Program-made: the position numbers and the translations under genes
Assembly: GCA_026416715.1 (NCBI GenBank)
Contig: JAOAEQ010000020.1
Span: forward strand, 8,988-72,987
Length of the DNA: 64,000 nucleotides
Origin: a bacterium
GTDB lineage: Bacteria > UBP4 > UBA4092 > JAOAEQ01
Reading direction: 5' to 3'
The notes under the pieces: generated by a model
The model's database searches: none
What the model was told of the DNA's origin: nothing
The model's input: the letters and a program-made list of their open reading frames with translations, nothing else
Shown: positions 12,201 to 13,919 of the stretch, piece after piece
Layout of the letters: each line of letters opens with the position of its first letter
Position numbering within the stretch: position 1 is the stretch's first letter

Positions 12201-12896
12201 AAGTTGATATTGAACGCGATTACCCGAAATTTTGCCAGCGAATTTTAATACTTCCCCGGGGTTTTCAGCGGTAATATAGACCGTTGCGCCGTCTGGAGTA
12301 ACCGTGATACCGCGAAACATTGACCGACTACCAACGATAGTAACTGGACTCCCTTCTAGTTCGTTTCCATCAGCATCTAGAACATGAAATGCGTTACCGG
12401 TTTTTTCAGCGATAAAAATATGTCCGGAATCGGATATAGCTATATCGCCGAGTGAATATTTTAAGGTTATCCCTGGTAATGCTGTTCCGAAGGCATTATA
12501 TTTATAAATTCGTTTCGGGCTGATCATTGCATCGTCAGAAATATAAATTATTCCTTGTTTATCAATGGCAATTCCGGATGGATTTTCGAGTTTAACCGCA
12601 TTACCTAAATGGTCGAGTCCAGAATTGATTGGTGAAAAGCTCGCTTCTTGTCCATCGGGCATATATATTCGTATTTCATGGTCGGAATATGCGGCAACCC
12701 AAACTTTTCCATCAGGTGCGACCGTAACAAACTGAGCACCGTTCATATTTCTACCGAAATTCGATTCGAATTGGAATGCTGGAAAACCCAAAATAGCAAA
12801 GATAACGCAGCCGAACAATGTTATTGAAATCGTACGTAACAGCCGTAGTCTTGATAAGTTACGAGCGGAAATGTTTAGCATTAAATGAAATCGCAT
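9228..12896 (-). CDS. NHL propeller / SPOR / TPR / jelly-roll membrane protein
   Basis: A 1222-residue protein with a good start (AGGAG, nine bases before ATG). Domains in order: hydrophobic signal anchor (about 22-42); NHL-like six-bladed propeller (55-315) with repeated GIAITPDG-type strands; three SPOR-like repeats (about 325-395, 427-505, 520-592), each with a V-x-I-A/G-x-F core; TPR and charged coiled-coil (605-815); a membrane helix (818-843, WNWIIYIGAGILIIAGLIF); a Lys/Glu-rich stretch and one more TPR (850-970); a Pro/Thr-rich linker (985-1035); and a concanavalin-like jelly-roll (1037-1222) ending YLDNIKISS. SPOR domains bind denuded peptidoglycan, which places residues 55-815 in the periplasm. 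The C-terminal part would then be cytoplasmic, which is odd for a jelly-roll. It follows the divergent BMC gene region and precedes the CHC2-TPR gene by 92 bases, probably one transcript. Confidence 0.85.
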   Translation of the reverse strand: MRFHLMLNISARNLSRLRLLRTISITLFGCVIFAILGFPAFQFESNFGRNMNGAQFVTVAPDGKVWVAAYSDHEIRIYMPDGQEASFSPINSGLDHLGNAVKLENPSGIAIDKQGIIYISDDAMISPKRIYKYNAFGTALPGITLKYSLGDIAISDSGHIFIAEKTGNAFHVLDADGNELEGSPVTIVGSRSMFRGITVTPDGATVYITAENPGEVLKFAGKISGNRVQYQLVGTVASNLSRPGAVELDKEGRIYIAETGADRIKVFSSTGIFETDIVGGTPGFRSPRGIAITPDGTTLYIAQFTNAPLQKWSTGITATSSAAPVTYRVQIAAFSSESKANGIKSQLASLGYSGINIVFDGQYYRVQVGNFNTIDDAVNLANDINARLVSPDFSGCWIMDSNLKAIKSVPITGVTAAQPPGTPIGVGNYWIQIGAYRVESNAQAVKKAIEKLGFTNVVINQEQNYQKVRLGPFPSITTAQRIVAALKDPQRGLVFPGLTGDFWIFAGGAGGAPPPAVTKIVYRVFIASFPDQKEALLQKAKLEAKGFWPVFVEAEEPLYNLLIGAFNSETEAAGLIPKLKAEGYTDLRIVRAGEVRPQIALTPEQEEQKKRELTAIADRAEELFAKKQYDQAILQLERLLQLQADNTKAIQRLQEAHEKLSEESRLVLEEQKRRIAEEEAKRKEVDALNAKAMNLWEQANYLAAVETWNQVLRIDPRDPRATLYIALAKERLAPLPDTKKEELKAKADKTAELDKKYKEARNLYASGAAQSDIDIINQAIEQWQQILREDPNHIEAKEAIANAELKIKEIEQAKKSKLWNWIIYIGAGILIIAGLIFIVPTIMKSILSRERKPKPVKVKAAVVSESAPEPAKVTPAPTKPTVAEKKKGFSLFGGKKKRELEAKLAAEREAKEREEREKAAAKQQEYEKWYQKGLDELEQGKFEDAIASFLQASQIDPNNPDPKRKAEFARKSLKTQQEAEKERQKKTPPAPEPTSTAPPPPTPPPTPTPVPPTEPVVAPSEVTAPITSVSAPTAPGVIFEQDFDSESSGMRPAGWNGEFAYATIQVQNSVRANDTGNALKFEKKEGSGSTHYRCRFPNATGKFTIEFDLCCEKKNKYFLGVYLEADEDFRKAVHTVIHTPEDGTQASLRLQGESVPYQLGKWVHIKYEVDLTNAVVNGYVDGNKVVTAARVPGTPEALNTISIRDNPATVAVLYLDNIKISS

Positions 12897-13310
12897 AAAA
12901 AATTTCTCCTAAAAAATGAATTTGTCGATAAAATATAACACTTTATCTTACTCAAAAGTCAGTCATTCGTCAAGTGTTTAGTGATAGATTGATTAGATTT
13001 AATGAAATTCACGATAGATTTCGTGGGGACGAAGGAGATTAACCTAAAGATAGACCACAGCGGCGTTAGGGCGGAGAAGAAATATCATGCCATTCGGGAC
13101 TAACGGTCTACGGTTATCTATCACAATCCAGTCATAAATATCTAGGTTAGTATCAATCATCTGAATCAACGGATATTAACAAGAAGGAATTGTGCAATAC
13201 TAATTTCCAACGGTGCTGAGCACACGGTTGGTAACCATTTAGAGTTAAAAATTCTTTTCAGGCTAATGTTTGATTGATTTTGAATTAGGCAAAAATATAT
13301 TTATCTTTAG
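12897..13310. other. Divergent intergenic region
   Basis: No coding frame of note. It separates the minus-strand NHL/SPOR gene from the plus-strand shell-protein gene and must carry promoters for both. The only clear structure is the nested inverted repeat at 13048-13122, listed separately. No T-tract terminator or known riboswitch signature was recognised. Confidence 0.55.
13048..13122 (+). repeat. Nested inverted repeat, possible structured leader RNA
   Basis: CGTTAG (13064-13069) pairs with CTAACG (13100-13105), which is directly followed by GTCTA (13106-13110) able to pair with TAGAC (13051-13055). GATAGA (13049-13054) can alternatively pair with TCTATC (13117-13122), giving two mutually exclusive outer stems. 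The segment is more GC-rich than its surroundings. It could be a folded 5' leader of the shell-protein gene about 190-240 bases downstream, or chance. No known class is matched. Confidence 0.3.
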
Positions 13311-13364
13311 TTGATATCTATGGTACAATTCATAGTTAAACCTAACGTCTTTTATTTAGATTTT

Positions 13365-13919
13365 ATGCATAAATCTATCGGGTTATTAGAGTTTAGAAGT
13401 ATTGCGAAAGGAATCGAATCTGCTGATGCGATGGTTAAAACCGCTCCGGTAGATTTGATTATTGCAGGAACATTATGTCCTGGGAAATATATTGCTGTCG
13501 TGAGCGGAGAAGTGGCGGCGGTAGAATCAGCGGTTCGTGCTGGAGCTGCGCTTGGTCGGGAAGAGTTAGTTGATGAATTAGTTATTGCCAATGTTCATCC
13601 GGATATATTTCCGGCATTAACCGCAAGTACTGATATTAACCTAAATGAGATCCAGTCGGTTGGGATTATTGAAACATTTTCAATAGCCGCTTCCGTTGCT
13701 GCAGCAGATTTAGCGGCGAAAGCCGCAAATGTAAAATTGATTGAAGTCCGACTCGCGCGCGGACTTGGCGGGAAATCGTTTGTCTGCTTAGCCGGGACGG
13801 TTGCTGAAGTTCGAGCAGCGGTTGAAGCTGGTTCCCAGTATGCGAAAGATCAAGGGTTATTAGTCAGTTCAGTGGTAATCCCATCCGCACACCCTTCCTT
13901 ACTAGAAAAACTATTATAA
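13365..13919 (+). CDS. PduT-like tandem-BMC shell protein (BMC-T)
   Basis: Two bacterial microcompartment (Pfam BMC) domains in tandem, the first beginning SIGLLEFRSIAKGIESADAM and the second SVGIIETFSIAASVAAADLA. I start at the ATG 13365, giving 184 residues with the family-typical MHKSIGLLE; ATG 13320 or TTG 13311 would add 15-18 unexplained residues. No Shine-Dalgarno site helps. The TLCPGKY loop carries a cysteine matching the PduT cysteine that, three per trimer, binds a [4Fe-4S] cluster in the central pore. Such trimers tile the protein shell of metabolosomes and may conduct electrons. No other shell protein, encapsulated enzyme or vitamin B12 gene is near, so it is an orphan here. The identity is firm; its role is open. 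Confidence 0.9.
   Translation: MHKSIGLLEFRSIAKGIESADAMVKTAPVDLIIAGTLCPGKYIAVVSGEVAAVESAVRAGAALGREELVDELVIANVHPDIFPALTASTDINLNEIQSVGIIETFSIAASVAAADLAAKAANVKLIEVRLARGLGGKSFVCLAGTVAEVRAAVEAGSQYAKDQGLLVSSVVIPSAHPSLLEKLL

Follow-up and report, generated by a model that had tools for sequence, protein, structure and literature searches.

The window, the whole stretch of 64,000 nucleotides that was analysed, carries one gene for a shell protein of a bacterial microcompartment (BMC), in an intact frame (Table 1). As homologues begin near the start adopted here, the in-frame stretch upstream of it is probably not translated. Two BMC domains were recovered in the single chain by Pfam search (155 bits, E 4.8e-46), and the top PDB relatives were 3nwg, 3pac and 3n79, all of the PduT type. 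The AlphaFold2 model was confident (pLDDT 94.3) and matched 3nwg with Z 28.2 over 180 aligned residues, 3pac (PduT with its 4Fe-4S site) with Z 25.1, and 3n79 (PduT C38S mutant) with Z 24.4; the two domains in one chain and the trimer-type fold are those of a BMC-T protein. A preliminary description of this DNA had proposed a tandem BMC protein of 184 residues with the PduT-type loop TLCPGKY, and both the searches and the structure modelling that it suggested bore this out.

Cys38 aligns with the cluster cysteine of PduT, where the residue number is identical, and CPGKY at residue 38 fits the pore-loop motif of Fe-S BMC-T proteins, C-P/S/A-G-K/R/S-Y/F (PMC6325248). The loop cysteine is invariant in the related loci (80/80; these are the loci of the closest BMC-T proteins, covered for up to 10 kb on each side and less at contig ends). 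From the sequence, the window protein is predicted, and probably able, to hold a [4Fe-4S] cluster on Cys38. Its score against the PduT equivalog model TIGR02526 was 134.3 bits at a cut-off of 250.3, which rules out membership, and the protein is therefore called PduT-type and not a certified PduT. The nearest relative in the alignment for the T tree was 59% identical at best. The tree placed the window protein among clustered Bacillota and SPU-like loci without strong support, and not with the isolated-T group of Ignavibacteria and Acidobacteria; this placement is not firm.

Table 1. Features of the window, of the remainder of the genome (G000) and of the single-contig genome G013. Window positions are given without prefix; C and L handles designate contigs and loci.
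Feature	Position	Strand	Basis or remark
Open reading frame, intact	window 13311-13919	+	Start by homologues, ATG 13365, giving 184 aa
Tandem-domain BMC-T shell protein, PduT type, 184 aa	13365..13919	+	Pfam BMC x2, PDB relatives, AlphaFold2 model
First BMC domain, PF00936, 83.7 bits	13374..13592 (= G000:C20:22361-22579)	+	Profile search of genome
Second BMC domain, PF00936, 83.1 bits	13656..13886 (= G000:C20:22643-22873)	+	Profile search of genome
Cys38 codon, loop TLCPGKY, predicted [4Fe-4S] ligand at trimer pore	13476..13478	+	Sequence, gapless alignment to 3n79 position 38, relatives
In-frame upstream stretch, alternative starts TTG 13311 and ATG 13320	13311..13364	+	Homologue starts near 13365
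Two BMC-H, class II aldolase, PduL, flavoprotein-like protein, AldDH	C1:182-187 kb		Operon-like run
Two single-domain BMC-H genes	C1:185 kb		In the run above
Acylating aldehyde dehydrogenase (AldDH) and PduL			In BMC-H operon-like run
Class II aldolase	L006:880-1761		In BMC-H operon-like run
Flavoprotein-like protein related to TIGR02536	L005:18376-19164		In BMC-H operon
PduS-type flavoprotein	C1:174018-175343		6 to 7 kb from BMC-H operon-like run
Two BMC-P genes	C1:37 kb		Whole-genome search
Third BMC-P gene	C2:56 kb		Whole-genome search
DeoC	C2:47243-48133; open reading frame L012:3243-4136		
RpiB	C2:45305-45721		Just before DeoC
G013, T and PduS	91 kb		
G013, BMC-H	586, 874 kb		
G013, DeoC	672 kb		
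G013, BMC-P	906, 1162, 2850 kb		Match P1, P2 and P3 of this genome, respectively

No other BMC or EutN/CcmL match was found within the window, nor any homologue of AldDH, PduL, PduS, DeoC or class II aldolase, in agreement with the earlier statement that 64 kb hold neither a further shell gene nor a cargo enzyme. The assembly (64 contigs, 100% complete by estimate) was then decisive for the term 'orphan': it holds within the window and fails in the genome, where a search for BMC-H, BMC-P and signature enzymes, the check proposed in the preliminary description, found these parts at four other sites. The genome encodes four BMC domains, two in the window protein and two in the single-domain BMC-H genes. 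A whole-genome domain search returned no second tandem BMC gene, so the window protein is the sole T tile found for the shell. Together with the BMC-H, BMC-P and enzyme genes at the other sites, this supports a contribution to a shell encoded elsewhere, one of the possibilities first considered. At no site do BMC-H (PF00936) and BMC-P (PF03319) genes occur together; there is thus no main locus to which the window gene could be a satellite, and no complete BMC locus with a T-type protein of its own, the one genomic finding named beforehand as contrary to the orphan reading.

Candidate encapsulation peptides (EP) were recognized by sequence reading as N-terminal helices on DeoC, AldDH, PduL and the flavoprotein-like protein, and as a C-terminal end on the class II aldolase; none was seen on RpiB. 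The sole clear Fe-ADH (iron alcohol dehydrogenase, the one alcohol dehydrogenase family covered) likewise lacks an EP-like extension, which favours electron export over alcohol formation in the lumen only as far as this family goes. The class II aldolase reached no NCBIfam equivalog cut-off. A nucleoside phosphorylase is encoded with RpiB just before DeoC, and a second phosphorylase and a phosphopentomutase (assigned from a metalloenzyme superfamily match and sequence reading) follow shortly after the third BMC-P. Next to this BMC-P, a histidine kinase gene starts 3 bases downstream (L013:56-1141) and a response-regulator/GGDEF-like gene lies divergently upstream (L012:10896-11897). The upstream regions of the seven dispersed genes were also searched for a common regulatory motif, and nothing exceeded the shuffles.

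The dispersal follows a known pattern. According to Sutter et al. 2021 (PMC8217296), FRAG ('fragmented') BMCs are spread over up to six sites, carry a BMC-P triplet and lack an obvious signature enzyme. Here BMC-H lies on C1, three BMC-P genes on C1 and C2, and the T gene on C20, and the separation of BMC-H from BMC-P at every site matches this published type. Each shell-gene site lies within a long contig among unrelated genes, and in G013, a genome in one contig of 3.29 Mb, the same set occupies seven sites (Table 1), which shows that the dispersal is not an assembly artefact. The three BMC-P proteins of this genome were matched separately in several clustered loci as well as in G013. Nearly the same parts stand in one cluster in relatives L126, L137, L130, L142, L144, L088 and L102, of which L126 and L137 are Myxococcota and L144 Bdellovibrionota; in L088 and L102 (Nitrospinota) the set is similar, with neither DeoC nor PduL detected.

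No other shell gene occurred within the stretch covered at 41 of the 80 loci. BMC-P was present elsewhere, usually three times, in 38 of these 41 genomes with an isolated Cys-type BMC-T (isolated-T genomes); the other three are metagenome-assembled genomes, possibly incomplete. Sixty further genomes were sampled, nearly all related to this one only at domain level, and BMC-domain and BMC-P genes occurred in exactly the same 12 of them. The nearest sampled relative, which shares the class only, had no BMC. The window BMC-T is most likely part of a scattered organelle, not an orphan.

The distribution of PduS was compared with that of the cysteine. The pduS gene lies within 10 kb of the BMC-T gene at 78 of the 80 loci, and across 61 genomes, the present one and the 60 others, full-length PduS (>320 bits) was found in nine, precisely those with a Cys-type BMC-T. 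Were the genomes independent, which is an idealization, the probability of such agreement by chance would be one over 61 choose 9, or about 6e-11. One genome, G026, has a BMC-T without the cysteine and also no PduS. Co-occurrence and gene proximity together suggest a shared redox role of PduS and Cys-type BMC-T. The PduS of Citrobacter freundii, which carries FMN and two [4Fe-4S] clusters, co-purifies with PduT (PMC2982820); all eight cluster cysteines are retained in the PduS of this genome. The potential of the PduT cluster is +99 mV (PMC6325248), which is high enough for electrons from NADH. In the simplest model, PduS and the window protein would export electrons and so give NAD+ back to the lumen. 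Weighing against the model, pduS does not adjoin the window BMC-T gene, whereas the two are neighbours in nearly all relatives.

Several single cases were recorded beside this pattern. L106 and L133 have Cys-type BMC-T genes and no pduS within the stretch covered, and in G035 BMC-T and PduS lie on different contigs. Upstream of pduS in the present genome, on the same strand, are NrfH-like and NrfA-like cytochrome genes (L005:11793-13629; names from sequence reading); the latter is apparently split over two frames (L005:13093-13629 and 12254-13141), for which either a mutation or an error of assembly could account.

DeoC splits 2-deoxyribose-5-phosphate into acetaldehyde and glyceraldehyde-3-phosphate. 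Phosphorylases, phosphopentomutase and RpiB near DeoC and BMC-P together provide a path by which deoxynucleosides could be converted to the substrate of DeoC, and such a route has been proposed for SPU compartments (PMC4207490; PMC8217296). Gene content and the likeness to SPU suggest that the compartment breaks down deoxyribose-5-phosphate, the sugar of DNA; the class II aldolase is a possible second source of aldehyde. The DeoC of this genome has an N-terminal extension, and a DeoC whose alignment reaches into this extension was found in 32 of the 41 isolated-T genomes and in none of 24 BMC-free genomes with DeoC, where a match is an alignment starting before residue 66, a threshold set post hoc, and many of the genomes are kin. 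The three isolated-T genomes that lack BMC-P also lack the extended DeoC. DeoC sequences of isolated-T genomes show an EP-like helix, e.g. SIIDKVVSQVFIEKAL, ahead of a linker that mostly has at least two cysteines. On this basis the DeoC lead is hypothesized to extend across the isolated-T genomes. It is proposed tentatively, with confidence somewhat short of even, that FRAG-like compartments are largely deoxyribose-5-phosphate metabolosomes whose EP-like DeoC is mostly encoded off-site, often with a Cys linker, and from which PduS-PduT exports electrons.

Both aldolases of this genome have a CxxCxxC-type motif next to the EP, CSNDPASCSDCGHC and CKGAECAECGIC in DeoC and the class II aldolase, respectively. 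It could be a metal or Fe-S cluster site, or a docking element. The motif is also found in DeoC of L080, L082, L099, L126, L130, L137 and L142 and is absent in L144. The idea that it marks encapsulated DeoC universally was rejected, as only 3 of 25 parsed DeoC sequences of isolated-T genomes have it, although most keep at least two cysteines in the linker. The long N-terminal part of DeoC in L126, L130, L137 and L142 resembles the flavoprotein-like protein; the two are apparently fused in some lineages and separate genes here.

Taken together, the window protein is quite probably the sole BMC-T tile of one scattered metabolosome with SPU-like cargo, its pore cluster relaying electrons from PduS. 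A single microcompartment is assumed, the alternative being two that co-exist. Three copies of the protein would form one pseudohexameric tile, co-assembling with the BMC-H and BMC-P proteins, and three Cys38 residues would hold the [4Fe-4S] cluster in the central pore. PduS would dock on the lumenal face of this tile and oxidize the NADH produced by the encapsulated AldDH, its electrons reaching a cytosolic acceptor by way of the pore cluster and NAD+ being restored inside. The aldehyde would come from DeoC and the class II aldolase, and would leave as acyl-phosphate via AldDH and PduL.

The same parts would also be expected if the protein were a shell tile of a dispersed compartment with a structural or gating cluster in its pore, PduS serving NAD+ recycling in the lumen or flavin reduction. 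Room is left for this by the literature, in which electron passage from PduS to PduT, if any, and the ligand of the fourth iron are unsettled (PMC6325248). That Cys-type BMC-T and full-length PduS occur strictly together, and that their genes nearly always lie close to each other, speaks against it, and it is considered unlikely. A lone gene, apart from pduS and from any shell partner in 64 kb, could further be taken as a minimal T-only assembly or a redox trimer outside any compartment, both of them ideas of the preliminary description. Neither sits well with a genome that encodes BMC-H and a BMC-P triplet, with the exact coincidence of BMC-domain and BMC-P genes in 12 of 60 genomes, or with BMC-P elsewhere in all isolated-T genomes but three; both ideas are unsupported and considered barely credible.

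Separation from all partner genes would equally suit a decaying relic of a former BMC operon that has no present role, as would the fairly long end branch of the window protein, which measures 0.52 in the T tree, where the median is 0.15. The intact frame argues otherwise, and so do the family's invariant positions, every one of which is retained, Cys38 and the second-domain GGK motif among them. Every partner gene is moreover present in the genome, and an equal layout recurs in unrelated phyla, making a relic very improbable. The scattered metabolosome with an electron-relaying T tile was accordingly retained as the preferred reading. Isolated shell genes like this one are easily annotated as orphans. 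For scattered compartments, which have been reported without a known function, DeoC emerges as a candidate signature enzyme, and the function of FRAG compartments thereby becomes testable via one enzyme family.

Compared with PduT, the [4Fe-4S] BMC-T of Pdu (C. freundii, 3pac; Salmonella, 3n79), the window protein shares the tandem fold, the length of 184 aa, Cys38 and a pduS in the genome, but is about 43% identical, lies under the TIGR02526 cut-off, does not stand beside pduS and has no surrounding pdu operon. Poribacterial BMC gene groups (Kamke 2014, PMC3909097) have two-component genes alongside, as at the third BMC-P of this genome; the main text of that report mentions neither aldolase nor PduT. 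DeoC, RpiB, AldDH and PduL are shared with SPU (Axen 2014, PMC4207490; Sutter 2021), as is PduS with SPU-like loci, and clustered loci, L126 and L137 among them, have almost the whole set in common with this genome; the DeoC-type aldolase and RpiB-type isomerase of SPU are thus present, whereas the single locus with shell genes is replaced by several sites and a class II aldolase is added. With FRAG1-7 (PMC8217296) the genome has in common distant shell-gene sites, the BMC-P triplet, AldDH and occurrence in candidate phyla; those types have no obvious signature enzyme, whereas this genome encodes two aldolases with EP-like ends, DeoC and a class II enzyme. Scattered organelles were already known; for this one, the parts list hints at its function.
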